NCBI RefSeq assembly: GCF_003568865.1
Contig: NZ_CP031115.1
Coordinates: 2,542,001 to 2,606,000 of the forward strand
DNA: 64,000 nt
Reading direction: 5' to 3'
DNA from: Rubrobacter indicoceani
GTDB lineage: Bacteria; Actinomycetota; Rubrobacteria; Rubrobacterales; Rubrobacteraceae
In this document: positions 16,724 to 64,000 of the stretch, piece after piece
Numbering within the stretch: the stretch's first letter is position 1
How the letters are laid out: every line of letters starts with the position of its first letter
Notes under the pieces: generated by a model
Told to the model about the DNA's origin: nothing
The model's input: the letters and a program-made list of their open reading frames with translations, nothing else
The model's database searches: none
Program-made: the position numbers and the translations under genes

Positions 16724-16797
16724 GCGCTCGTAGCTCAGCCGGATAGAGCGTCTGACTACGAATCAGAAGGTCGCAGGTTCGAGTCCTGCCGAGCGCG
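16724..16797 (+). tRNA. tRNA-Arg (anticodon ACG)
   Basis: A full cloverleaf can be drawn: acceptor GCGCTCG with CGAGCGC, D arm around GCTCAGCCGGATAGAGC, anticodon stem TCTGA/TCAGA with loop CTACGAA (anticodon ACG at 16758-16760), and T arm GCAGG-TTCGAGT-CCTGC. The CCA end is not encoded. Its 3' half is the likely insertion site of the element to the right. Confidence 0.97.
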
Positions 16798-16807
16798 CAA
16801 AGGAAAG

Positions 16808-16910: not shown

Positions 16911-18107
16911 TTAGCTGTCTTTGGAGGGGTGCAGATTGCGTCCGAAACGCTCCATCGCGAGCCTTCTCGGGGCATCTCCGGTATGGACGTAGACATCTGC
17001 GGTGGTCTTTATGGAGGTGTGGCCGAGGATCTTCTGGAGGAGGGACAGATCCTCCCCCGACTCTACCCACAGTGTCGAGAAGCTATGACGGAGATCGTAG
17101 AGTCGGATGTCTGGCAGTCCGGCAGATTCCAGAAGCGGTTTGAAGTGGCGTCTTCGGATGTTGTTCGGATTCATGATTCCACCGTCCTGATTCGGGAACA
17201 CGAGGTCATGTTCTTCCCAGGTGTCGCTTCGCTGCGACTTCTCTTCGAGTTGGCGAGTACGATGAACCTTCAGAGCATCCACAACCTCTGGAAACAGAGG
17301 CACGGTTCTACGCATCTTGGTCTTTGTATTCTCGCGTAGCACGAAGCCCTGCTCCCTCGTGTGCTCGACCCTCCGCCCGATTCGAGCGGAGCCGGAGATC
17401 CCGGCTTCCTCCGGCAAGACAAGATCCGACCACTTCAGAGCGAGGATCTCTCCGGGCCTGAAACCAGAGCACGATGCAACAAAGAAGAATGCTTCGAAAC
17501 GATTCTGGGTCTTCGAAGCTTCTCTGAAAAAGATTTCCAGTTGTTCGAAGGATAGCGTCTTGCTCTCTTCTCGCTCCGGCATCTTCGGGGCATCCGCATC
17601 TCGCGCCGGGTTGTACGGAATCAATCGCTTCTTGACCGCATTCTGCAGGGCGGCTCTCCCAGTCGTGTGGACGTAACGAACGGTCGCAACACCCACACCT
17701 CTATCCAGAAGGATCTCGTAAAGATTTTCCAGATCCTCGGCGGTTAACTCGTGGAGCTTGACGTACCCGATGCAGTCAACCGGGATCAGGTATTTCTCCG
17801 CATGGTAGCGATAGTCCTGCAAGGTTCGCGCCGAGACCCGTCGCTTGAGGGGACCATCAAGCCACCTTTTCATATACGCTGCAACGGTGAGTCTGCGAGA
17901 CTCCAACGAGTATCCCTTTTCGAGGTCCTTCTCGAAGAGCTTTTTCTTTTTGAGGGCTTCGGACTCATTTCGACCGTAAAAACTTACCCGCTCTCTGCCT
18001 CCGGTCTTATGACGAAGCTCTTTCGGGATGTACAGACGGGCCTCTACCAGACCACCCTTGTGACTCCTGATGGTCCCCTCTCCGCGAGTTCTCTTCGTGC
18101 CAGACAT
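16911..18107 (-). CDS. int: Tyrosine recombinase / integrase
   Basis: A 398-residue site-specific recombinase. The N-terminal arm-binding part opens with GTIRSHKGGLVEARLYIPKE, then a SAM-like core-binding domain (about residues 70-165) and the catalytic domain. Catalytic residues visible: Arg in SCSGFRPGEILAL, YDLRH (the His of HxxR is Tyr, a common variant), LGHTSIKTTADVYVH with the second His, and the nucleophile Tyr in the last motif. It integrates the element into the adjacent tRNA-Arg. The 3' end of the gene faces the tRNA. No typical excisionase gene follows. Confidence 0.93.
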   Translation of the reverse strand: MSGTKRTRGEGTIRSHKGGLVEARLYIPKELRHKTGGRERVSFYGRNESEALKKKKLFEKDLEKGYSLESRRLTVAAYMKRWLDGPLKRRVSARTLQDYRYHAEKYLIPVDCIGYVKLHELTAEDLENLYEILLDRGVGVATVRYVHTTGRAALQNAVKKRLIPYNPARDADAPKMPEREESKTLSFEQLEIFFREASKTQNRFEAFFFVASCSGFRPGEILALKWSDLVLPEEAGISGSARIGRRVEHTREQGFVLRENTKTKMRRTVPLFPEVVDALKVHRTRQLEEKSQRSDTWEEHDLVFPNQDGGIMNPNNIRRRHFKPLLESAGLPDIRLYDLRHSFSTLWVESGEDLSLLQKILGHTSIKTTADVYVHTGDAPRRLAMERFGRNLHPSKDS

Positions 18108-31936: not shown

Positions 31937-34900
31937 GTGTTCGCTCACCTGCATGTGAGAAGTGGATACTCTTGGGGATACGGCACGGCAACGCCAGGGG
32001 AGCTGGTCGCTTTGGCGGCAGAGATAGGGATGAAGTTTCTGGCCCTCACAGACCGGGACTCCCTCTTCGGAGTGCCAACCCTCCTTGCAGCCTGCTCTAA
32101 GTACGGGGTATCACCCATCGCAGGGGTTGAGATCACGATGGAGGGAGACGGAGGATGCCCCGGCGGACATCTTGTGCTGCTCGTAGAGAGCGAGGCGGGC
32201 TACCGCAACCTGTGCCGGCTCATCACGAGCTACCGATGCTCCTCTGAAAATAGACGAAGACCATGCTGTAGGCTGAAGACTTTGCTCGAACACGCAGAAG
32301 GCCTCATCTGCCTTGCCGGAGCCATCCCGTTCGGCTACATTCCTGCCCCACTTCTCTCTGGGAACCTGAAGACGGCGAGACACCGCGTAGACGCTCTAAG
32401 GGAAGCGTTCGGGGATGGTCAGCTGTACGCGGAGATCACGAGCGACCTTACCCTCGGCAGCCGCCGCAGAGTACGCGCCGTCCACCAGTTCGCGAGGGAG
32501 TGCAATCTACCGCCCGTTGCCACGAACGAGGTCGCCTACCTCACGCGAGAAGACCACCGCCTGCACGAAGTACTCGCAGCAGCGTTTAGCCTCTCCCCCC
32601 TTCCACCATCGGACTACCGCCCCACAGACCAGCTCTACCTGAAAGACTCCCGAAGGATGACGAAGCTCTTCGAGGGATACCCCGGTGCTCTACGCAACAC
32701 CGAAGCCATCGCAGAACGGTGTGCGGGGGTCGTGAAACGTTCAAACGGCGTGCATATGCCGACGGCGAATCTGAAATACGGAGACACCGCAGAGAAGAAG
32801 CTCATCGGACTAGCGACCGCCGGAGCCAGAAGGAGATACTCAGAGGGCGAGATGTCGGAGGTGAAGAGAAGACTGAGACGGGAACTTTCGTGCATCTTCT
32901 CTTTAGGCTTCGCCCCCTACTTCCTCCTCGCCCGTGAAGCGGTAGAGATAGCGAAGACCGAAGGCTTGCCCGTTACCGGACGGGGGTCTTCCGCAAACTC
33001 TCTCGTCGCCCACTGCCTCGGCATCACCCGGCCCGAGCCTCTCTCAAACCGGCTGCTCTTCGAGCGGTTCCTCCACGAGGAACGTATAGACCCACCGGAT
33101 ATAGACCTCGACTTCTCCTCCACAGGACGCGAGCTCGTCAGGAACGAGCTGGTCCGCCGCTACGAGCGGCTCGGGGTAGCCGAGGCCGCAACCGTCAGCA
33201 CGCTATCCTTACGGGGAGCAGTTCGGGTAGCCGCACGCGCCCTCGGCCACTCTCCCCAGGAGATAAACGCTCTTTCGAAGGGAGTCCCCTCAAGGTTTAG
33301 AGACAGGGAGCGCATCTACAACTCCGTCTCCGGCTGGAACGAGGCTCTCCGGGAACCGTCCATGAGGAACCATCGCCTGCAAGATAAAGAAGAGCACTCC
33401 CTGCTCCTCGACCTGTCGTGGAGACTCCGGGGCAAACTGCATCAGGCGGGTACTCATTCTGGAGGTCTGGTATTCGGTACGGACTCGCTGCACCTCTCTG
33501 AGATAGTCCCTCTCGAACCATCCGGTATAGACGGCCTCCTGCGGGTGCAGGCGGACAAGGACGACCTGGAACTACTCGGCCTCCCGAAGCTCGACCTGCT
33601 CGTGCTGCGGATACACGATGCTCTGCACCACGCAGGAGAACTGGTCTCCAGGCGTCTTGCGGATGAAGGGAAGATAGAAGACGGTCAGAAGATAAATCCG
33701 CTCTCACCTCCCCCGGGAGATAAGGAGACCTACGCCCTCATCCGCACGGGGAAGAACATAGGGATGTTCCAGGTCGAGAGCCCGGGGCAGATGCACCTTA
33801 GTCAGAGGCTCAAGCCCCGCCGATTCGAGGACCTCGTCGCCCAGATATCCCTCTTCCGCCCCGGCCCTGTAAGGGGAGACTTCGTGACCCCCTATGTTCT
33901 GAGACGGAACGGCATCGAACCCTACCGGGCGATCACGGAGAAACTGGAAGAAGTCCTGAGACCGACCTACGGTGTCCTCATCTACCAAGAGCAGGTGCTC
34001 GAAGTAGCGCAGGCCGTCGCAGGGTTCTCTTTCAAGGAGGGTGACCTGCTGAGAAGGGCGATGACGAAAGACCGGGGTCCGGGGGCTATAGACTCCATCC
34101 GGGAAGAGTTCACAGGACGAGCGGCGGAGCGCGGTGTACCGGAGGAAGAAGCAGGTAAGGTCTTCGGATGGATCGAAGGTTTTAGTGGCTACGGCTTCCC
34201 GAAGGCGCACGCCGCCTCGTTCGCCGCTATCACCTACGCCTCAGCGTACATGAGACGCCACTACCCGGCGGAGTTCTTCACAGGGATACTCAACTCTCAG
34301 CCCATGGGCTTCTTCTCTCCGAGAACCGTCCTCAACGAAGCAAGGAGGGTGGGGGTCGGGGTACTGCCGCCGGACGTACATCTCTCCGGCAGAGGCTTTA
34401 CGGTGGAAGAAGATGGGGCGTCCGTCCGCGTCGGCCTCTCCTACTGTAAAGGACTCTCCCTGAGAGCTATGGACTCCATCCTCGAAGAGAGGGAGAAATC
34501 TCCCTTCGTCTCCGTAGCGGATCTCTACAGGAGAACGGATGTGGAGCGGGATTCTCTTGTGAACCTGATCCGGGGAGGCTACCTGGACACTCTGGCTATC
34601 GGGTCACCGTCCCGTGCTCGCGGGAAGCTCCTTGCAGAGGCATCACGATTACCGAAGAAGAAGCGTAGGTCGGGACAGGACGAGATCCCCGCTCACCCCG
34701 CAAGCTGGTGGTTCTCGTCCAAGAGCAGCGTGAAGTATCTTCCATCTCTTACTGAGGATACTGAGCAGGATCAATGGCGGGTACTAGGTCTGAACGTAGC
34801 CTGCCATCCCCTCACTGCAAACAGAAAAGCTCTGACCAGTCTCGGGGCCGTGGCGGCATCTGAGGTCATGTCTTTTCCCAGCGAAACCACCAAGAGTCGG

Positions 34901-35239
34901 TTCCGGGTAGCGGGGCTGCTCGAAACGCTACAGAGACCGCCTACGAAATCCGGGGCTGTCGTTCATTTCCTTCTTGTAGAGGACGAATCCGGGGTACTTC
35001 AGACGACGATATTCGAGGATGTGTACAGAAGGTACGGATACGTCCTGCACGAGTCCGGCTCGTACCTGCTCGATGGGGTCGTAGAGCGTGACCGCAGGCG
35101 TGGCGCGAGCTATCTGGTGAGCAGGATACAGAGCCTCGATGCGGTACTCCAGGGTACTGCAGGAACTGTGCCGGATGTGGTGGCGGCCGGCTCCGGAGCT
35201 TTTGTACGAGCGAGGCGGCGCGGCAGATGGGCTGGATAG
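31937..35239 (+). CDS. dnaE2: Error-prone DNA polymerase III alpha subunit DnaE2 (ImuC)
   Basis: 1100 residues. An N-terminal PHP domain opens with FAHLHVRSGYSWGYGTATP and contains ALTDRDSLFG; the C-family polymerase core has GRGSSANSLVAHCLGIT and the catalytic PDIDLDF at about 387-393, then QVESPGQMHLSQRLKP and the finger region GFSGYGFPKAHAASFA. HhH and OB domains follow (FRVAGLLETLQR; FLLVEDESGVLQTTIF). The length is that of DnaE2 rather than replicative DnaE. It starts with GTG right after the DUF6504 gene. No ImuB is present in the window. Confidence 0.94.
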   Translation: MFAHLHVRSGYSWGYGTATPGELVALAAEIGMKFLALTDRDSLFGVPTLLAACSKYGVSPIAGVEITMEGDGGCPGGHLVLLVESEAGYRNLCRLITSYRCSSENRRRPCCRLKTLLEHAEGLICLAGAIPFGYIPAPLLSGNLKTARHRVDALREAFGDGQLYAEITSDLTLGSRRRVRAVHQFARECNLPPVATNEVAYLTREDHRLHEVLAAAFSLSPLPPSDYRPTDQLYLKDSRRMTKLFEGYPGALRNTEAIAERCAGVVKRSNGVHMPTANLKYGDTAEKKLIGLATAGARRRYSEGEMSEVKRRLRRELSCIFSLGFAPYFLLAREAVEIAKTEGLPVTGRGSSANSLVAHCLGITRPEPLSNRLLFERFLHEERIDPPDIDLDFSSTGRELVRNELVRRYERLGVAEAATVSTLSLRGAVRVAARALGHSPQEINALSKGVPSRFRDRERIYNSVSGWNEALREPSMRNHRLQDKEEHSLLLDLSWRLRGKLHQAGTHSGGLVFGTDSLHLSEIVPLEPSGIDGLLRVQADKDDLELLGLPKLDLLVLRIHDALHHAGELVSRRLADEGKIEDGQKINPLSPPPGDKETYALIRTGKNIGMFQVESPGQMHLSQRLKPRRFEDLVAQISLFRPGPVRGDFVTPYVLRRNGIEPYRAITEKLEEVLRPTYGVLIYQEQVLEVAQAVAGFSFKEGDLLRRAMTKDRGPGAIDSIREEFTGRAAERGVPEEEAGKVFGWIEGFSGYGFPKAHAASFAAITYASAYMRRHYPAEFFTGILNSQPMGFFSPRTVLNEARRVGVGVLPPDVHLSGRGFTVEEDGASVRVGLSYCKGLSLRAMDSILEEREKSPFVSVADLYRRTDVERDSLVNLIRGGYLDTLAIGSPSRARGKLLAEASRLPKKKRRSGQDEIPAHPASWWFSSKSSVKYLPSLTEDTEQDQWRVLGLNVACHPLTANRKALTSLGAVAASEVMSFPSETTKSRFRVAGLLETLQRPPTKSGAVVHFLLVEDESGVLQTTIFEDVYRRYGYVLHESGSYLLDGVVERDRRRGASYLVSRIQSLDAVLQGTAGTVPDVVAAGSGAFVRARRRGRWAG

Positions 35240-53246: not shown

Positions 53247-54149
53247 TTACGTCTCCAGGGATTCAGCGGCGATTCTGGCTCCGGCCATGGATTCCAAATT
53301 GCGGATGATCCTGCCGACCGTCCCTTGGATCTTCACTAGTGCCAACCTGACTACTTCCTTGTCTTCCGTCCAGTGTGCGACGTAGGCGAACGAGTATCCC
53401 GAGGTGTCCAGACCAAAGTAAGAAAGCACGGCGTAGGCGGCACCTTCAGCTTCGGCTTCGATCAGCGGTCGCTCGACTCCGGTTCGGATCGCATCCCGGT
53501 GCATCACGTGATGGACGTACTCGTGTAGGAGGCTCTTTGTCTTCTGGTCGCCCGAGAGAGTCTCCTTCAGGAGTATGAGCTTCTTCACAGGAGAGTAGAG
53601 AGCGTTCGCGGTCGGGTAGCGGGCGTTTATCTCGTCGTCGCTCTCGCGCACTTCGAGACCCTCATCACGGCACATCTTCTTCAACGCCACTATTAGATGC
53701 GCCGCTGTCGAAGACGAGCCTGAAAGTGTCTCTGGATGCGGCTTTTCAGGAAGAGGTTCGGCTCCGGGTAGCGCGATAGTCTGAGAAATATCGAATACCC
53801 TGACGACCTTGAAGGCGCAGATCGCGCGAATCTTCTCCCCGGTTTCTTCGTCTTCTACGGTTCTGAAGACCGGAGCGAGGATGTCTATACCCCTCTCATC
53901 TCGCTTAACCTGACGACCGAGACCCCGCCAATTCCCGTATCCGGCGACCCTGGTTGCCGAAGGTTTCTGTAGGAGTATCAGCATGCAGTTGTTTGCCGAG
54001 TAGACGTGGAACCGTGCGGCGAACGCGAGATACCGCTTGAAGCTCTCGCTATCGAGTATCTTCTCGACACCTTCATCGAGCATCTGCATGGCGACGCCTA
54101 TCCTGTGCTCACGCAACCCGGTCCCGGCACGTCCGTCCTCATTCCTCAT
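53247..54149 (-). CDS. ArdC-like anti-restriction/zinc metallopeptidase-domain protein
   Basis: 300 residues from ATG 54149 with AAGGAGG upstream. The N-terminal ArdC-type domain has AFAARFHVYSANNCMLILLQ, RVAGYGNWRGLGRQVKRDER and GIDILAPVF; the C-terminal part has the metallopeptidase motif LLHEYVHHVMH and EAEAEGAAYAVLSYFGLD. ArdC homologues protect incoming conjugative DNA from restriction and bind ssDNA. It sits in the conjugation module, coupled (ATGA) to the zinc-ribbon gene. Confidence 0.85.
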   Translation of the reverse strand: MRNEDGRAGTGLREHRIGVAMQMLDEGVEKILDSESFKRYLAFAARFHVYSANNCMLILLQKPSATRVAGYGNWRGLGRQVKRDERGIDILAPVFRTVEDEETGEKIRAICAFKVVRVFDISQTIALPGAEPLPEKPHPETLSGSSSTAAHLIVALKKMCRDEGLEVRESDDEINARYPTANALYSPVKKLILLKETLSGDQKTKSLLHEYVHHVMHRDAIRTGVERPLIEAEAEGAAYAVLSYFGLDTSGYSFAYVAHWTEDKEVVRLALVKIQGTVGRIIRNLESMAGARIAAESLET

Positions 54150-54403
54150 GATTCCTCCTTCGCGTTTTCGGTTAGCGAGCGACGTACACCGCTCTTCTTC
54201 GGAACGGCGGGTATGCACGGTGGCCAGATTCCCCGGTAGCCCTTCGGTTTCGGGTAGAGGTACGCACTGAAAAGCTTGGTTCCGTGACACGCCGGGCAGA
54301 TGGAGAGCCTCACCTCATTCGGTGTTCCAACGTGGATCCAACCCTCAAAACATCTGACGCATTCCCGCTCTTTGTAGAGTCCGGAGTCGTAGTCTTCGGA
54401 CAT
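54146..54403 (-). CDS. Small zinc-ribbon protein
   Basis: 85 residues. Two CxxC pairs (ECVRCFEG and ICPACHGTK) form a likely zinc knuckle between residues 15 and 39. The rest is basic and proline-rich. AAGGG lies before the ATG. The stop overlaps the ardC-like start, so it is cotranscribed. No named family. Confidence 0.7.
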   Translation of the reverse strand: MSEDYDSGLYKERECVRCFEGWIHVGTPNEVRLSICPACHGTKLFSAYLYPKPKGYRGIWPPCIPAVPKKSGVRRSLTENAKEES

Positions 54404-55781: not shown

Positions 55782-56135
55782 TCAGGGAATTGCGGGGTCT
55801 TCACCGCTCTCTCCTCCACCTCTGCCGAGGAACTGGACGTTGTCAGCGATGACATCCACCTTGGAGCGTTTCGAGCCGTCCTCCGCCTTCCAGGTTCGGT
55901 ACTGGAGTCGGCCTTCGACTAAGATGGGATCTCCCTTCTTTTTGTAGTTCGCCACGGTCTCTCCGAGTTCACGCCAAGCACTCACGTCGAAGAAGTCCAC
56001 AATGTCCCTGTCCCGCGCCCTGACCCGGTTGACCGCCAACCCGAAGGAACACACGGGGACACCGTCTCCGACGATCTTCAGCTCCGGGTCTCTCGTTACG
56101 TTTCCGGCCAGGATCACCCTGTTGTAGCCAGCCAT
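55782..56135 (-). CDS. ssb: Single-stranded DNA-binding protein
   Basis: 117 residues, an OB fold: NRVILAGNVTRDPELKIVG, FGLAVNRV, FFDVSAWRELGETVANYKKKG split as DVSAWRELGETVANYKKKG, PILVEGRLQYRTW and VIADNVQFLG. The acidic tail ends GEDPAIP, shorter than the usual DDDIPF tip. It would coat single-stranded DNA in transfer and replication. RBS GAGAGGAGG; a leader stem-loop at 56168-56200. Confidence 0.92.
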   Translation of the reverse strand: MAGYNRVILAGNVTRDPELKIVGDGVPVCSFGLAVNRVRARDRDIVDFFDVSAWRELGETVANYKKKGDPILVEGRLQYRTWKAEDGSKRSKVDVIADNVQFLGRGGGESGEDPAIP

Positions 56136-56242: not shown

Positions 56243-57715
56243 CTATCCGGATATCTCCTCGATCTCCCGAGCCGCGCTCTCGTCTTCGAGCGAATCGAGC
56301 ATTACTGCATGCCCAGTTTCCTCGACAGGCTTCTCGACTTCGGTTGTTTGAGATTCTTCAGGCTTTGCAGGGGTACGGTCAGGATCGTAGAGATCGCGTA
56401 CGATCCTGGCGAGATCCCTTCCGAACCCCTGGCGATTCAGCTTCTCCGTCGCCGCCAGATAGATTCTTCCAGACTCGTGCCTGCGAAGCCTTCGTACCTT
56501 TCCGGCTCCGGCAAGCTCTCTCAGCGCAGCGGTCAACTCCGTCTTCGGGTCTGCTGCGTCGGAAGCGCAGAGTTTCGTGTGCCGCTCCAGGAACTCGCTC
56601 TCTGGAACCGGCTCCCCGGCACGCCTCAGCAGGTAAAGCAGCTTGTGAGCGAGGGTGGGTAGCCTCTGGAGGTAGATCGCCCTTGCGGTGTCGTACTTCA
56701 CCCGACCCGAACGCCTCCTGGCTTCGATCTTCAGGCGAAGCTCCGGCTCTTCCGTCCAGTGCCGCTTTCTAGATCTCTCGCGTGCGTCGTCTATCTCTCG
56801 GGCGGTTCGAACTACGAGTTCTTCTCCGCTCCTGCGACGGGCGATGAACTCCACCCGCATCCGTCTACGGTTGGTCTCTATTCTCCGTCGTTCGGTGTTG
56901 CTCTCCACAACGGCGAGGGAACCCTGCCGTGAAGCTCTGAACATCTGCGCTGCAGCGGCCGTCTCGGCCTCTCGGCCTCCTCTGCTCTCGACGCTCAGGC
57001 CCCAGTCGCGCTGCTCCGAGTAGTGGCTACCTGTCTCCGAAGCGGAGATCAAGACCCCACGGTAACGTCCCGACACTACCTGTCTGTCGAGGAGGATGGC
57101 CAATCTACCTACCGCCCTGCCCCTGTCTCCGTCCGTTGAGCCGGACATCGCCAGCACCAGACCTCCGCCCTCGAAGAATAGATGGGCGACGCCTCGCTCC
57201 GATAGCCTGGATATCCGGGCCAGTGTCTCTGACGGAAGATCGTCTACCCGGCGGGCAGCGGCGACCGCCCAGCCGGACTCTTTGATGTGCTCGATCAGGG
57301 CTGCGTCGCTCTTATCCAGAACACCGTCGTGGTCGCAAGAGCAAGGCTGCTTGATCCGAGGCTCTTCCAGGCGTCCGAAGAGCGCGTAGGCTGCGGCGGT
57401 GCGGGCGGAGTAGTAGCCGACGAGCGGCTCGTCGTTGCATCCGACTGCGAAGGTGCAATTGCCGTCGGGGTCGAGAGCGAGGCCCACGGACTTCAGGCAG
57501 TTGTGAGCCGTCGGTAACCAGAGATCGTCTCCCCTCTCGACAGCTCGGGACAACGCTTCGCGTCGTTCGGGAACGGGTAGTCTCAAGAGCATTGCTTCGA
57601 GGCTTTCGAGTTGTTCGACGACGTACGCGAACTCCTCTGGCGTGGGATCCGAGAACCTCGGAGGGTCGAGATTCTCCACTACCGACCGAACGATCGGCAC
57701 GTTAAACTTCATCAT
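56243..57715 (-). CDS. Large unknown protein with C-terminal winged helix
   Basis: 490 residues from ATG 57715 (AAGGAG upstream; a longer frame to 57772 crosses the leader stem-loop). A globular N-terminal half holds a Cys/Asp cluster (KQPCSCDHDGVLDK) and strand-rich segments (GVAHLFFEGGGLVLAMSGS). An Arg-rich helical middle (RRRIETNRRRMRVEF) leads to a winged-helix-like part (LAHKLLYLLRRAGEPVPESE, ELAGAGKVRRLRR). The tail is acidic. Not a family I recognise; DNA binding is plausible. Confidence 0.75.
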   Translation of the reverse strand: MMKFNVPIVRSVVENLDPPRFSDPTPEEFAYVVEQLESLEAMLLRLPVPERREALSRAVERGDDLWLPTAHNCLKSVGLALDPDGNCTFAVGCNDEPLVGYYSARTAAAYALFGRLEEPRIKQPCSCDHDGVLDKSDAALIEHIKESGWAVAAARRVDDLPSETLARISRLSERGVAHLFFEGGGLVLAMSGSTDGDRGRAVGRLAILLDRQVVSGRYRGVLISASETGSHYSEQRDWGLSVESRGGREAETAAAAQMFRASRQGSLAVVESNTERRRIETNRRRMRVEFIARRRSGEELVVRTAREIDDARERSRKRHWTEEPELRLKIEARRRSGRVKYDTARAIYLQRLPTLAHKLLYLLRRAGEPVPESEFLERHTKLCASDAADPKTELTAALRELAGAGKVRRLRRHESGRIYLAATEKLNRQGFGRDLARIVRDLYDPDRTPAKPEESQTTEVEKPVEETGHAVMLDSLEDESAAREIEEISG

Positions 57716-57740
57716 GGTGGTTCTCCTTTCATGGGAGAAG

Positions 57741-57769
57741 AAGGTCGGGAGATTGCAGCTCCCGACCTT
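57741..57769. promoter_or_regulatory. 11-bp stem-loop in leader of 56243-57715 gene
   Basis: AAGGTCGGGAG and CTCCCGACCTT form a perfect 11-base-pair stem around a 7-base loop, 25 bases before the start codon. No gene lies directly upstream that it could terminate. Confidence 0.78.
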
Positions 57770-58550
57770 CAACCTTTCAGACAGCTATTCTTTCGTCGGT
57801 GTCAGCCCAGAGCTTTCTCCTTTCTCTCTGAAATCGTGTCTGCTTCGTCTGACCTGTGGGGTTGTCTTCGTAGGTGATGATCGGGGCACTCAGCGGTAGG
57901 GTTCACCGTCGGAGCGTGAGGTTTGCATTCTGTTGCTAGTAAGAGCGGAGCGAATTCGACCGATCAAGCGTCGAGTGGAGCAGCACGGCTGGCAACATCG
58001 AGGGCCTCTACTAACGGCCAGCTTTTCTCTGTTATCGCATCATGCGGTGTGTCATGTAGATCTTTTGGGCGAAAGATCTAGAAACCAGAAGTACCGGGGC
58101 TTTTGTGGCGAAAACCCCCAAAACCTGCGTGCCTATCTTTTTCTCTTGGCCATCAACTTACCTTCGTATGAGTGTTCTGTAAAGGACGGAACACCGAGCT
58201 TCGACTCAGACTTCAAGCAGGGGGCGGAAAGTAGCTTTGCTATCTACGGAAGATACGAAACCTGGTGTTTGTCGGAATGTATAGGGGCTTTCCTGAACGA
58301 CATTGCAGCGTCCTGCCAATAGCTCAGATCCCTCTCATAGCACGGTAAACACAAGCCCGGGGGTGTGGCATCCGCACCAGCAGGCGATCCTCATCAGACG
58401 TACCGGGTAGCCCTCCGGCTGCGACGAGCATGCCCTGCCCTCGAAGTGTTGCATCCGGGGACGTTTCGGATGTGAAGTATGTACTTCGGAGTGTGGCACC
58501 CGGGCATCGAATTCTTGCAAAATACAGCGAATTTTCCTCACCTTCAGGCT
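57770..58550. other. 781-base largely non-coding region with paired stem-loops; oriT candidate
   Basis: Between two leftward DNA-processing genes. It holds two similar stem-loops at 58057-58080 (TAGATCTTT/AAAGATCTA) and 58096-58118 (GGGG-c-TTTT/AAAA-CCCC) that share CTTTTGxGGCGAAA across loop and stem, and a GTGTGGCAYCCG direct repeat near 58365 and 58492. Such a structure beside a replication-relaxation gene would suit an origin of transfer or replication; this is inference. An open frame at 57933-58322 on the plus strand looks non-coding. Confidence 0.5.
58335..58541 (-). CDS. Possible small Cys-rich protein
   Basis: A 68-residue frame starting with GTG, ending in RIACWCGCHTPGLVFTVL with a CxCxC-like group. 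It begins 10 bases after the replication-relaxation gene. No convincing ribosome binding site; it overlaps direct repeats. Could be real or incidental. Confidence 0.3.
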   Translation of the reverse strand: MRKIRCILQEFDARVPHSEVHTSHPKRPRMQHFEGRACSSQPEGYPVRLMRIACWCGCHTPGLVFTVL

Positions 58551-59315
58551 TTACGAGAGGCGTTCGGCGGCGTTTCTCAGGTACTCGACGATATGCGGGA
58601 CGTCGCCCGCCTCAACTCGAATTCCGAGCTGCTCGCCTGCTCGGATCGCCTGTTGCGCGAGCGGCGATCTTCCACCGTCCAGAGCGAAGAGGACTTCGGT
58701 GGGGGCTTTCAGGCGGAGGACGGCGAACCGCCTGTGATCCTCGACCTTCCGGTAAAGCTTCTTAGGCCCGATCTTCGATTCCGCCGTCTGCCGCTCCAGA
58801 ATGAACGTGTGTCCTCGAAACACCACGTGGGCATCCGGCTTGTGAAGGTACGCGGAGTTCTCGTACTCACCGGCGTAGGTAGCCCGCTTCTCGTGTCTCC
58901 ATTCCCACTCCGGGTAGGAACCGAGTTCCCCGTCCAGGATGTCTTTGACCCCGACGTATACCTCGGCGGTCTTGACGTAGTGCAGGGCCTGAGCCGGGAG
59001 CAGCGGCTTCGTAGCGTAGGTCTCCTCGACGCCGAGGCTCTCTGACACGGATTCGAAGCCGGCTTTCGTCAGGTTCCAGATCCCCTGCGCAGCGACGCGA
59101 TCCTCCCAGCTCGTCGGCTGCTTCAGGTACATCGTCCTAGCCGTCACGTAGCCCTTCGCCTTCAGCTTGGCAAGGCGAGTGCGGGCCTTGCCTCTGCTCG
59201 GAAAGAATAGCCCAGCGAGCTGATTTGTGGAGAGATACCGGCAGAAGAACAGTGCTTCGAGAACGTCTCTGTCCCGATCGGTGATGGTACCGGCTCTGCC
59301 CGTCGCGAGCGCCAA
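58551..59315 (-). CDS. Replication-relaxation family protein (mobilisation/initiation)
   Basis: 254 residues from TTG 59315 with AGGAGG upstream. An N-terminal winged helix (DRDVLEALFFCRYLSTNQLA; RTRLAKLKAKGYVTAR) precedes a nuclease-like core with KPDAHVVFRGHTFILERQ and a following TAESK, resembling a PD-(D/E)xK arrangement with Q variation. The family occurs on actinobacterial plasmids and conjugative elements beside the transfer genes. It lies downstream of the primase. Confidence 0.82.
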   Translation of the reverse strand: MALATGRAGTITDRDRDVLEALFFCRYLSTNQLAGLFFPSRGKARTRLAKLKAKGYVTARTMYLKQPTSWEDRVAAQGIWNLTKAGFESVSESLGVEETYATKPLLPAQALHYVKTAEVYVGVKDILDGELGSYPEWEWRHEKRATYAGEYENSAYLHKPDAHVVFRGHTFILERQTAESKIGPKKLYRKVEDHRRFAVLRLKAPTEVLFALDGGRSPLAQQAIRAGEQLGIRVEAGDVPHIVEYLRNAAERLS

Positions 59316-59324
59316 CTCTTCCTC

Positions 59325-62183
59325 CTAATGACGTATCTCTCCCCGCAGCATCCGAGCCTGCTGCAGACGCATAGATATCCTCCGCCACAGTACGAACCCG
59401 GCTGAAGCGGTCGCCAGCAACAGGGCGATATGCAGGGACTCAGCATCCGAAACCACAGTCAGGGGAGCCGCCTGTAGCAGGGAGAAAGTAGCGAGGGCGT
59501 TCTCCGCTAGAGACGAAGCAGAACGGAAAGCCGCGAAGACCGCAAGCCACACCGTGACCGTCCACAGGAGGTCGCTCTTCATTACGAAGTGATCTGCTCC
59601 GGGATGATTCCGGTGTCGGACAGGCTTCTTCTTTTGATCCGCTCTGCTTCTCCGAATTCTGTAGCAGGAGATTGATCCGAGCGTCAGGGAGATGCCGAAC
59701 AGCAGAACAACCGGTTCTCTGAACTCGCAGACAAGGTTTACCGGTGTAGAGTCGAGCAGCCTTCTGACGTGTCCTGTACGTCCGGCGTAGACGATCTGCT
59801 CCCCTCCGATCCCAACGCTCACATACCCGGCAAACGCCTGAACTCGAAGAATCGCGGCGTCAAGCGTCGCAGTAAGAGCCGCCGAGATGAGGAGTGAGGA
59901 GTAGGCGACTCCGGCGGAGATCGGTGCTCTTCGCTCCTCAAAGTCCCGTCCACCGCGTTCTATTGCCGGCAAGTCGTTTTCGATGCCGAGTAGATCGCGC
60001 AGACGGTCTCCTGCTGCGTTCTCGGGCTGGGCGAGCATCCACTTCCCCAGGGAGACCGGATGCCCAGTGTTCTGCATCTTGTCCGGGAACAATTCCTTGA
60101 CCACGACCCGTCCGTTTAGACCCTCTATCGAGTTTCGCGCTTTCAGGGAGGTATAGCCGCGCTCGGGATCTCCGGCAAACGATAAGTACGTGATTTTTCT
60201 CGTCCCGAGGTCAACGTTCTCGGGTCGGAAAAGCATTGTCCGATGTTGGTCTGTTTCGTGATCCGGGGTCGATCCACGATGTATTTCAGAGCTACATATC
60301 GCTCCGACAGCGATATCTTCCTGAGCGGCGAGTAGCGAGCCGAGTAGACCGTGGCAGAGGCCGACGACCTGTTCGTAGCCGTAAGGAGCGAAAACGTACA
60401 GGCACGAGCCACAGCCGGAGAACGGGACGCTCTCGTCTGGAGAGACCACCCCGGTCGCACCGTCGAAGGGTACGGCTACGAGGTTTGAGATCATACCCTC
60501 CGAGTCGAAGCAAGGTGCCAGCACGAACTCCCCCGCTGCCGCCAGCGGAATGCGAACCGTGCCATCCTTGTCAAGCTCGAAGCCAGGAACGAAGCGCAAC
60601 CGTCTAGCCCCGAATCTGGTCACAAGCTCTGATACTGCCTTCTCTGCACTGCGGTTGTCTATGGACACGAAGCAGCCCGCATCGAGTGTCTCCTCCCAGA
60701 CCCCGAGTTTCGAGAACGCCTCTGCGTGTGCGCTCTTCAGAGGGAGCAGGCCGAGTAGCTTTCCGTAGACCTCGTGGTGAAGGCGACGCGCACCCCCCGA
60801 TGCGGTTTTCTCCTTTTCGCTGTCCGGTGAACGAGGCGGAGCTTCTGATCCCGAATCCAGCACGGGCGATTCTTTGCGATCCGCTGTATCAGAAGACGAA
60901 ACTCGAAGTCCATCTTCTGGTGGAGGTGCGCTTGCGAGCAGCTCGGCGAAGCGTGCGACGCGGTTCTCCGGCTCGATGCTCAGGAGCCACTCGTCCATAT
61001 CCTGTCCCGTCGGCAGTAGACAGAGCGCGGGTTTCCCATTTTGGGGTTCTGATATCCAGCGCGCGGCCTTCGGCGCGGCTCGCAGCACGGTCGGGTTCGG
61101 CGGATCATCCGCGTCGGGTATGTACGGAACAGTCCTCCCCCCGAAATCCACCCCCCGCAGTTCCGGGAGCGGTGCGTATGATGCGCCAGACTCCCCAGCC
61201 GAGACGCGCGACCGGAATCGCTGGCAACCCTGTATCGAACCGACCGAGAGACCTGACTCAGCCGCTACGATAGCTCCCATCACACCCTCGCAAACAGCCT
61301 GCAGCTTTTCGGGGTCGTGTCCGGGGAAAAGGTAGAGGTGATTTCCGGCATCCCGGAGGGATACGTACTTACCCATCCTCCCGTGTGCTTCGCCGACCGA
61401 GCGTCCCTCGATGGTCGAGATGCGCCCGTATCGGTCGTGGTACGGGATCAACAGATAGTTCCCGCTCAGGGTGAACTTGAGATGTCCGTCACGCTCGTCC
61501 TCTGAAAAACCGGGAACCCGCAGCAGAGCCTCACAGTCGAACTCGCTCTGAAGCGTGGCCTTGGCCTTTCGCGACCGCGCCGGGGTCATGCTTCCGAAGC
61601 GGCCTTCCCTTATCGTTTCCAGAGAGACGCCGCGAGACCTCAGGTAGGAACGATCACGGCTCTCCAGAGGACAGAGACCCATGATTCGACCGTAGATTCG
61701 CGCTGCGAGATCCTCGTCGCTCTCAGATGCTTCCGGCTTCCTATATCCTTTTAGCGTTCCAGTATGTTTCCCAGACGTTCTTATACTGGGCACATCTGAT
61801 TTGGACTTGCCGGAAGTCTTTGCGGCTTCCTTCTCCGAAGGCTGGAGTCCAAGAAGATCGTAGGCTTTCACGAGTACGGAATGAAAATCGAAGTAGTAGT
61901 CGAGGTCGTGGATCTTCGCCAGCATCAGGAGGATGTCGTCGTATCCGGCGAGGCGACAGCCCTCGACCATACACCCGCCGCGCCGCTCGTCCTTCTTTAC
62001 CGAATACTTGTCCCGCTTGCCGCAGGCCGGACAATCCCAGACTAGCCTTGCGCCCTGATCCCTTCCTGCCCCGGAGAGGCTTATAGCGAGGAGATCGAAC
62101 GTCCTGTCGCGTATGAGATCCTTGTCGTAGTGCTTCCGCTTCGGTTTCGCGGAAGCCACCGTGCGGGTTCTGGAGGCTGTCAC
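59325..62183 (-). CDS. Zinc-finger/TOPRIM primase-like protein with duplicated module and membrane tail
   Basis: 952 residues. Residues 51-83: DnaG/CHC2-like zinc finger (CPACGKRDKYSV, GGCMVEGCRLAGYDDIL). Residues ~160-415: module 1 with YGRIMGLCPLESRDRSYLRS, LIPYHDRYGRISTIEGRS, the TOPRIM Glu in VCEGVMGAIVAAESG, Asp in YIPDADDP and QDMDEWL. Residues ~470-735: a second, degenerate copy (YGKLLGLLPLKSAHAEAF; VVGLCHGLLGSLLAAQ with Glu replaced by His). The C-terminal ~190 residues contain about four hydrophobic segments (e.g. REPVVLLFGISLTLGSIS; LLWTVTVWLAVFAAF). GTG start overlaps the upstream stop. Confidence 0.85.
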   Translation of the reverse strand: MTASRTRTVASAKPKRKHYDKDLIRDRTFDLLAISLSGAGRDQGARLVWDCPACGKRDKYSVKKDERRGGCMVEGCRLAGYDDILLMLAKIHDLDYYFDFHSVLVKAYDLLGLQPSEKEAAKTSGKSKSDVPSIRTSGKHTGTLKGYRKPEASESDEDLAARIYGRIMGLCPLESRDRSYLRSRGVSLETIREGRFGSMTPARSRKAKATLQSEFDCEALLRVPGFSEDERDGHLKFTLSGNYLLIPYHDRYGRISTIEGRSVGEAHGRMGKYVSLRDAGNHLYLFPGHDPEKLQAVCEGVMGAIVAAESGLSVGSIQGCQRFRSRVSAGESGASYAPLPELRGVDFGGRTVPYIPDADDPPNPTVLRAAPKAARWISEPQNGKPALCLLPTGQDMDEWLLSIEPENRVARFAELLASAPPPEDGLRVSSSDTADRKESPVLDSGSEAPPRSPDSEKEKTASGGARRLHHEVYGKLLGLLPLKSAHAEAFSKLGVWEETLDAGCFVSIDNRSAEKAVSELVTRFGARRLRFVPGFELDKDGTVRIPLAAAGEFVLAPCFDSEGMISNLVAVPFDGATGVVSPDESVPFSGCGSCLYVFAPYGYEQVVGLCHGLLGSLLAAQEDIAVGAICSSEIHRGSTPDHETDQHRTMLFRPENVDLGTRKITYLSFAGDPERGYTSLKARNSIEGLNGRVVVKELFPDKMQNTGHPVSLGKWMLAQPENAAGDRLRDLLGIENDLPAIERGGRDFEERRAPISAGVAYSSLLISAALTATLDAAILRVQAFAGYVSVGIGGEQIVYAGRTGHVRRLLDSTPVNLVCEFREPVVLLFGISLTLGSISCYRIRRSRADQKKKPVRHRNHPGADHFVMKSDLLWTVTVWLAVFAAFRSASSLAENALATFSLLQAAPLTVVSDAESLHIALLLATASAGFVLWRRISMRLQQARMLRGEIRH

Positions 62184-62722
62184 CGCACGTCCCCCTTCGC
62201 CGGTCTGACGAACGGTGGTCTGCCGTAGGCTTTCCTTATCTGAGAAGCCATCTCGTAGACCTCACCGATGGAGCATTCCTCGGGAGCTTCGGCGAAGGCG
62301 AGCGAGAGATCCCAGACCGGGCTAATTCCTTTCAGCACGTCCTGATCTTCGCCAAGATAAAAGAGTTTGGCTCGGGTGAAGCAGATGATGTTCTGGACAC
62401 GCTTTGAACCCGAGCCCAGCTTTGCATCAACATCGTCACAGAGCTCCGAGGCCTGATCTCTGGGATCATCCTTGAAGCACCGATGGTTCAGGTAGAGAGT
62501 CCCGTATTCGTCCGCAGTAACCTCTCCTTCCTCGTCCCGAACGACGATCACACACGCCCCCGAAGGTCCAATCGCGAGGAAGTCGATCATCCCGGCCTCC
62601 TCGGTTATTAGCTCGTCGAATACATAGAAACCGTGCGCCGCAGAAGACCTCAGAGCCGCCCGTACCAGCTCCCACCTCTCGGAGCGGGCGATCCTCTCGT
62701 CCTTTGTCTTTTTCGCACTCAA
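62180..62722 (-). CDS. NERD-like nuclease-fold protein, probably inactive
   Basis: 180 residues from a TTG that overlaps the VirB6-like stop (TTGA). The core resembles the NERD domain: GFYVFDELITEEAGMIDFLA, then IGPSGACVIVVRDEEGEV. The Asp of the usual ID site is kept, but the expected catalytic E/D-x-K reads VVRDEE, so activity is doubtful. The rest (FTRAKLFYLGEDQDVLKG) fits the restriction-fold family. Its place between T4SS and primase genes suggests a role in DNA handling. Confidence 0.65.
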   Translation of the reverse strand: MSAKKTKDERIARSERWELVRAALRSSAAHGFYVFDELITEEAGMIDFLAIGPSGACVIVVRDEEGEVTADEYGTLYLNHRCFKDDPRDQASELCDDVDAKLGSGSKRVQNIICFTRAKLFYLGEDQDVLKGISPVWDLSLAFAEAPEECSIGEVYEMASQIRKAYGRPPFVRPAKGDVR

Positions 62723-64000
62723 TTCTCACGCACCGATGTCTCTGACTTCCAATCGTTCAGACCCGGAGCTGTGGCATCTCTCTGTCGCTTCTGCATGAAC
62801 CTTTCCCGGCTCTCATCTCCGTCCTCTCTCTGCTTCAGGTATTTGAGAGTGTTTTTGGAGAGGTTCTCAGCCCGTCGAGCCTGCTGCATCTGATGACGCA
62901 AATGCTGCATTTTGAGGATCTCGTTGCGACCCTTACCGCCCACCGAGTTATCGGAACCCTTGCTAGTATCACGCGCACCGGATGAGGCTGCCGCTGCTCC
63001 GGCGATGCTTCCGCCCGCAGACGATCCGCTCATCGCTCCCTTGACGGCGGTTGCGATAGCGGTCTTGGCCGGAACCATAACGGCGAGCGTAGTCGCGGCC
63101 TTCGCAAGCCCTCCGAGACCTCCCCGCCCCGGTAGCTGGACGTTGAAGGCCCACTCCACGACCTTGAACGGTGTCTTGTACATGATCCACATTGTAACTA
63201 TCGCACCTATCGAAACCACCGCTCCGCTTGAGATAAAGCCCAGCGCGTCGGCCTGATCTCCGAAGATAGCCTCCGGTGAGCGCACGACAAGCGTACCTAT
63301 GCCGAGTTCTATAGACCAGAGGGCCGGGATCGCCGCGCAGGCAAGAACACCCCTGAACCACGATCCGGCGAGCGATGAGAGTCCGGGTACGAGCGACGCC
63401 ACGAGGGCAAACGGTCCGGCGATGAAGAGGATCACGTACAGAATGTTCTTCAGCAGAGAGACGATCAGCACCAGCCCACCAACCCAAACCGCTGCAATCA
63501 GGAGAACGATGTTGAAGACGTTCGCGATGGAGACTTGGTTTCCAACGGCGGCCTTGAACAGCTCCCTACCGGCGGAGTCCACATTCCCACCGCTCGGGGA
63601 GAACGCGCCGCTGATCCCGGCCGTTATGTCGGCGAACTCGCCCATAAACTGCGGTAGAAACGCCATCGCCATCCCGACGCCGAGCAGCTTCGGCAGACCG
63701 TGAAAGCCGGCGTAGGCGAGGTCGTAGCTGTCCCCGCGCACCATCAGGAGAATGCCCAGCAGGAGGATGCCGACGAGTATGGCGGGTCTGAGCTTCTCCA
63801 CCCCCTGTGTGTAGAGGCCGATGAGGTCGGAACGCCCCTGGAGATCCGGGAGCGCAAGGACGCTCGTCTCGAAGGCCTCGGACATCGTCTCCAAGGCAAA
63901 CCCGAAAGTGTTGTCCCAGAGCCACTCCAGTATGTCCGTGAAGAACCCGAGTACCATCCCACCGAGACCACCCGCGTCTGGAACCGTCTCGGGAGCTTCG
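62719..64000 (-). CDS. VirB6/TrbL-like T4SS inner-membrane protein (N-terminus may be outside)
   Basis: At least 412 residues from ATG 63957; the frame stays open to the window edge (EAPETVPDAGGLGG before MVLGFF), so the true start may lie further right. Six or more membrane helices in the first 290 residues (LRPAILVGILLLGILLMVRG; IANVFNIVLLIAAVWVGGLV; ILYVILFIAGPFALVASLV), then a Gly/Ala/Ser-rich soluble tail and a charged C-terminus. This layout fits the channel component VirB6/TrbL of conjugative type IV secretion. It heads the leftward module. Confidence 0.85.
   Translation of the reverse strand, partial: EAPETVPDAGGLGGMVLGFFTDILEWLWDNTFGFALETMSEAFETSVLALPDLQGRSDLIGLYTQGVEKLRPAILVGILLLGILLMVRGDSYDLAYAGFHGLPKLLGVGMAMAFLPQFMGEFADITAGISGAFSPSGGNVDSAGRELFKAAVGNQVSIANVFNIVLLIAAVWVGGLVLIVSLLKNILYVILFIAGPFALVASLVPGLSSLAGSWFRGVLACAAIPALWSIELGIGTLVVRSPEAIFGDQADALGFISSGAVVSIGAIVTMWIMYKTPFKVVEWAFNVQLPGRGGLGGLAKAATTLAVMVPAKTAIATAVKGAMSGSSAGGSIAGAAAASSGARDTSKGSDNSVGGKGRNEILKMQHLRHQMQQARRAENLSKNTLKYLKQREDGDESRERFMQKRQRDATAPGLNDWKSETSVREN

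Follow-up and report, generated by a model that had tools for sequence, protein, structure and literature searches.

A DnaG-type primase core with a degenerate duplicate and a predicted membrane tail in the transfer operon of Rubrobacteraceae conjugative elements

A single open reading frame in the chromosome of Rubrobacter indicoceani joins a four-cysteine zinc finger, a DnaG-type primase core, a degenerate second copy of that core and a C-terminal tail with predicted transmembrane (TM) segments. It lies in the 64,000-nucleotide stretch analysed here, henceforth referred to as the window (positions 2542001-2606000 of a 2.86-Mb contig). The protein is best explained, with a confidence somewhat above even, as a membrane-anchored DnaG-type conjugative primase carrying a pseudo-enzyme module and belonging to the transfer machinery of ICEs and plasmids of the Rubrobacteraceae. 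Its domain make-up, internal duplication, catalytic residues, conserved predicted tail, operon context and purifying selection were established computationally. A preliminary description of the same DNA had proposed one frame joining a finger, two modules and a hydrophobic tail, and this arrangement was borne out with the corrections given below.

The gene, its element and the transfer operon

The primase gene occurs once in the genome, and the conventional dnaG of the host is found at a separate site. A sister species of the same genus carries a syntenic copy with 85% identity. Searches of genome contigs, viral contigs and phages with the single protein returned no matches, while an alignment-based search returned none among viral contigs and only Rubrobacteraceae among genome contigs. 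The element and the genes that adjoin the primase are as follows:

16756..16799, plus strand: attL, the 44-bp 3' end of tRNA-Arg(acg)
16911..18107, minus strand: tyrosine integrase of the ICE, adjoining tRNA-Arg
58551..59315, minus strand: PF13814 (Replic_Relax) protein, a MOBC-type relaxase candidate, always adjoining the primase
59325..62183, minus strand: primase gene with predicted membrane anchor, 952 aa, GTG start, 4-bp overlap with the NERD gene
62180..62722, minus strand: NERD-domain protein, translationally coupled to the primase, just below the Pfam cut-off
62719..63957, minus strand: VirB6/TrbL-like T4SS protein, 592 aa, with a frame that continues past the window end

The primase-bearing element is an ICE of ~91 kb at tRNA-Arg, identified by its integrase, its T4SS and the flanking direct repeats at the tRNA; the 44-bp attL is repeated at G000:C1:2649684-2649727, beyond the window. 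In correction of the preliminary description, the gene thus belongs to an ICE that has relatives among plasmids. The ICE also contains a DNA polymerase III alpha-type gene (window 31937-35239), encoding 1100 aa with PHP, NTPase, finger and HHH domains.

The products of the operon comprise a VirD4/TraG-like protein, a TrbC/VirB2 pilin, a VirB4 nearest the CD1110 type, an SNase-domain protein, an SLT/M23/CAP wall hydrolase, VirB6, the NERD protein, the primase and the PF13814 protein. Overlaps of 4 bp connect VirB6 with NERD and NERD with the primase, and the PF13814 gene starts 9 bp after the primase. At every locus the primase gene is part of the T4SS operon and shares overlaps with its neighbours. 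Like primases of the TraC/Sog type, it is encoded with transfer genes, here in a conserved cassette. The SNase-domain protein is encoded inside the T4SS operon at L044:3935-5218, and the R. tropicus plasmid encodes a thermonuclease-family protein at the corresponding position. In the R. tropicus and R. marinus plasmid cassettes, NERD is fused to an RDD membrane domain (L031:2204-3277; L032:4153-5280).

VirB6 had been described as the immediate neighbour of the primase. It is encoded upstream in the T4SS operon but two genes away, with the NERD gene in between, and the relaxase candidate downstream bears more on primase function than VirB6 does. This downstream protein matches PF13814 with an E-value of 7.6e-11. 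Among the relaxase families of IMEs, PF13814 is listed as the MobC class (PMC5357655). A relationship to restriction endonucleases is described for MOBC relaxases, of which TraX of pAD1 has a winged helix (PMC12857230). A PDA...ER-x-T motif is invariant in the ten PF13814 neighbours, as are D161 and E174, with no clear E-x-K lysine for a PD-(D/E)XK-like site. The protein is treated here as a candidate MOBC-type relaxase that may nick element DNA. Downstream of it, an ArdC-like anti-restriction gene (53247-54290) and an SSB gene (55782-56135) form an arrangement resembling a plasmid leading region, and the SSB gene is syntenic with the annotated ssb of an R. marinus plasmid. A 509-aa protein encoded at 56243-57772 of the window is conserved in several of these elements and belongs to no Pfam family.

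Zinc finger and the two primase modules

The protein is divided into four regions, all encoded on the minus strand:

61839..62138, minus strand: zinc-finger domain, residues about 16-115, C51-x2-C54-x16-C71-x4-C76
60909..61724, minus strand: module 1, DnaG-type primase core, residues about 154-425, with E299, D357, D359, D395 and D397
59979..60818, minus strand: module 2, degenerate primase core, residues about 456-735, catalytic residues lost
59328..59909, minus strand: predicted membrane tail, residues about 759-952, with four predicted TM segments and a basic loop and C-terminus predicted to be cytoplasmic

The DnaG-type zinc finger of the preliminary description was recovered as an N-terminal zinc-binding domain of the kind found in DnaG-type primases. 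All four cysteines are invariant in 8 relatives and the region is modelled by AlphaFold with a pLDDT of about 90, although the Pfam matches at the N-terminus are weak and below cut-off (Zn_Ribbon_Prim, E 0.068; DNAG_N, E 0.0087).

Module 1, earlier described as a primase/TOPRIM-like module, was confirmed by both fold and residues. Its AlphaFold model shows the DnaG N-subdomain and TOPRIM fold, and the core (residues 154-432) aligned with DnaG structures at Z 16.8-19.0, most rows having an rmsd of 3.3-4.8 A. Foldseek matched the same core to DnaG with E-values down to 1.5e-12. Sequence profiles detect this likeness weakly (TIGR01391, E 3e-4, residues 160-312), and the NCBIfam dnaG model gave 19.7 bits against a cut-off of 283.6, which places the protein outside the replicative DnaG orthologues; the Pfam scan of the protein returned no DnaB-binding C-terminal DnaG domain. 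Assignment of the TOPRIM module to the nuclease or topoisomerase type was rejected, as the DnaG N-subdomain is present and topoisomerases and gyrase reach a Z of only about 5.

The TOPRIM acids E299, D357, D359, D395 and D397, together with K272-Y273 and an EGR motif, are kept family-wide in module 1 despite an overall identity among relatives of 32-45%. The exceptions are an R in place of K in one relative (G065) and, in a copy that an R. marinus plasmid carries apart from the cassette, one missing Asp. Direct reading of residues 361-390 found no D-aromatic-N-acid (DaN-acid) motif. The modelled fold and its full set of acids point to a DnaG-type primase core, which may synthesize RNA primers.

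Module 2 is a duplicate of module 1 by sequence, as had been proposed from parallel motifs. The two share 30% identity over 236 aa in the window protein (E 6e-19) and 31-32% identity in the R. tropicus and Rubrobacter MAG proteins (E 2e-36 and 2e-37). Structural superposition had been suggested for both modules. Module 1 proved DnaG-like, while AlphaFold models of module 2 alone, from 3 sequences, reached a pLDDT of 47, and the likeness of module 2 to module 1 therefore rests on sequence. With this caveat, neither of the outcomes that the preliminary description had named as counting against it, structurally unlike modules or a tail free of predicted membrane helices, was encountered.

The loss of key acidic residues from module 2 holds for both Asp pairs, which are gone in all five copies along with K272 and R261. 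The replacements are F or R for D357, G or T for D359, S for D395, G for D397, E for K272 and V or L for R261. The Glu-to-His change that had been singled out is lineage-specific: the position of E299 is H611 in the window protein, while the sister species has Gln there and the other three copies have Glu. A role for His as a new catalytic residue in place of Glu was rejected on the same comparison.

In the module tree, one group unites the five module-2 sequences (100/100) and a second one the module-1 sequences from intact two-module proteins (95/98), as a single duplication would produce; with an unplaced root and long branches that join, the tree does not order the gains and losses. Simple two-sequence estimates of dN/dS were below 1 in every folded domain and in the tail, indicating purifying selection. 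In the LC3-R. tropicus pair, the values are 0.23 for module 2 and 0.24 for module 1, while the window's own pair gave 0.36 and 0.20. Given the shared residue losses and these values, module 2 looks like an old pseudo-enzyme and not a decaying copy.

Membrane tail and modular variation among relatives

Four hydrophobic segments had been noted in the tail. All four are present in the window protein and the tail is conserved in relatives, but the window's own segments are only marginally hydrophobic (KD 1.47-1.72). As composition-preserving shuffles of this tail yield at least four segments in 6% of cases, the window tail taken alone is only suggestive of a membrane domain. The case is carried by the relatives, because the tail is conserved and reaches KD 2.0-2.9 in them. 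Among two-module proteins, those of R. tropicus, R. marinus and the MAG contain tail segments with KD up to 2.9; in the one-module proteins (from two plasmids and two genomes) a hairpin of two helices precedes a basic C-terminal stretch. These one-module tails are related to the final hairpin of their two-module counterparts (hhalign E 9e-6, probability 83%). Descent of the two hairpins of the tail from one another by duplication was unsupported (hhalign E 0.15).

The loop between helices 2 and 3 has a net charge of +7 and the C-terminus +4, compared with +1 and -2 for the other two loops, and the positive-inside rule therefore predicts an N-in/C-in topology. AlphaFold models the tail as long helices at low confidence, and the tail of the window lineage is less constrained (dN/dS 0.55). 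The tail is best described as a conserved predicted membrane domain that would insert into the membrane.

The cassette was found at ten loci, all from one bacterial family, the Rubrobacteraceae; it is conserved in further chromosomes and in plasmids carried by R. tropicus and R. marinus. The same architecture, which the preliminary description had proposed to seek in other actinobacterial elements, thus exists in other elements of this family, and when 396 genomes of the phylum were searched with a profile (E 1e-8, two candidates scored per genome), no member was found outside it. The number of primase modules varies, with two at five loci, one at four and none at one. The last, at L079:7269-8252, encodes a zinc finger and TM-hairpin protein devoid of the primase core, between VirD4-like and PF13814 genes. 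Whether a member has 0, 1 or 2 modules, the predicted membrane tail is present; zinc finger and tail are the sole parts common to every cassette member.

Three one-module relatives score above the Pfam cut-off for DUF3854 (PF12965), to which the window protein has no match. The other DUF3854 proteins in the phylum have neither such a zinc finger nor a C-terminal TM tail. On the R. tropicus plasmid, a separate replication initiator is encoded within a different group of genes at a distance of about 30 kb. The cassette plasmids NZ_CP045120.1 and NZ_CP045122.1 are typed as 'non-mobilizable' by MOB-suite, likely a blind spot for PF13814-type relaxases. In one R. marinus strain, the two-module copy on the chromosome is interrupted, with its parts in three frames (L049:9989-13268), either a pseudogene or an assembly error, and two plasmid copies are also present. 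The second of these (L051:9962-11134) lies outside the cassette and contains a finger and core with a damaged DxD and no tail.

Proposed function and comparison with known systems

Three ways are known of priming the single strands that arise in conjugation or rolling-circle replication: by the RNA polymerase of the host, by its primase or by a primase that the element itself encodes (PMC4595007). In the favoured explanation, the zinc finger and module 1 would make RNA primers on the single strand of the element. Module 2, having kept structural core residues while losing catalysis, would serve as a structural platform or one that binds ssDNA or a partner. The C-terminal hairpins would keep the enzyme on the cytoplasmic side of the membrane, next to VirD4, VirB4, VirB6 and the relaxase candidate, possibly in contact with the pore. 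Second-strand synthesis on the strand released by the relaxase would then be primed at the site of its production or of its arrival. Such priming would be local because the enzyme appears membrane-fixed and is encoded between pore and relaxase genes. It would take place in the host cell while the element replicates and, after expression of the gene has begun, in the new transconjugant; both are more likely than the transport of a multi-TM protein into the recipient. Several observations count against this explanation. Known conjugative primases go to recipients, which is difficult for a multi-TM protein, and the TOPRIM-less member, whose gene occupies the position of the primase gene, suggests that one lineage can do without priming. 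The marginal hydrophobicity and weaker constraint of the window's own tail, and the low confidence of its AlphaFold model, also weigh against it. More tentatively, and with less than even confidence, the membrane-integrated tandem of primase and pseudo-primase may be a structural part of the conjugation machine itself, so that the transfer pore would have a strand-conversion enzyme of its own, built on a constant finger and TM-hairpin chassis on which the number of cores can evolve.

The TOPRIM-less member also makes a serious rival of a relaxosome-T4SS adaptor, although this is on balance unlikely. The protein would anchor DNA through its zinc finger and present it with the relaxase to VirD4/VirB6, with module 2 as part of the scaffold and priming secondary or vestigial. 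Retention of only finger and hairpin directly between VirD4 and a relaxase-like gene agrees with this role, as do the universality of those two parts in the cassette and the equal constraint on the pseudo-module and module 1 in the LC3-R. tropicus pair. A scaffold would not, however, need the catalytic residues that module 1 keeps invariant across such divergent relatives. A membrane-tethered primase for vegetative replication of the ICE or plasmid, adjacent to transfer genes by chance, is improbable: the gene is inside the T4SS operon with overlapping frames at every locus, and the R. tropicus initiator belongs to a distant gene group. The SSB and Pol III alpha genes within the same ICE speak for such a role, as do the DUF3854 scores of single-module relatives, since titles in the literature link DUF3854-type plasmid primases with plasmid replication. 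It is very improbable that the window-lineage tail is not inserted and that the protein is a soluble primase whose hydrophobic C-terminal domain packs on a partner. The moderate KD peaks, the shuffling result and the dN/dS of this tail would fit, but the homologous tails of relatives have strong TM helices and the basic loop and C-terminus match the positive-inside rule.

The favoured membrane-anchored primase shares with bacterial DnaG (PDB 2au3, 1dd9, 5guj) the zinc finger, the N-subdomain and TOPRIM fold, the five acids and K-Y. It differs in its CX2C-x16-CX4C four-Cys finger, its second degenerate core and TM hairpins, its location in a T4SS operon and the lack of a match to the DnaB-binding C-terminal domain. 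TraC (RP4) and Sog (ColIb/R64) are likewise TOPRIM-type primases encoded with a T4SS and presumed to prime the element strand. TraC and Sog are transferred with DNA to the recipient (PMC5512222), whereas the TM segments predicted for the window protein make its transfer less likely. Unlike these proteins, it has a predicted membrane anchor and a pseudo-primase copy; it also has no DaN-acid motif, a feature described in TOPRIM primases of mobile elements. DUF3854 (PF12965) plasmid proteins share the core region, but those outside the cassette are without the finger and tail. In MOBQ relaxase-primase fusions (RSF1010/R1162 MobA-RepB'), a primase is also tied to a relaxase, physically or genetically, and is needed for mobilization (PMC12857230). 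The primase here is instead a separate, predicted membrane protein with a DnaG-type core, adjoining a MOBC-type relaxase candidate. Element-encoded conjugative primases are already known; a narrow phrase search of a collection of papers found no membrane-anchored one.

The conservation of a catalytically dead primase core under purifying selection is unusual, and the 'non-mobilizable' typing of cassette plasmids implies that such systems may be missed in surveys. If the favoured explanation is true, priming of the transferred or displaced strand would be tied to the membrane transfer site in these elements, and the location of second-strand synthesis in Gram-positive conjugation would become testable.
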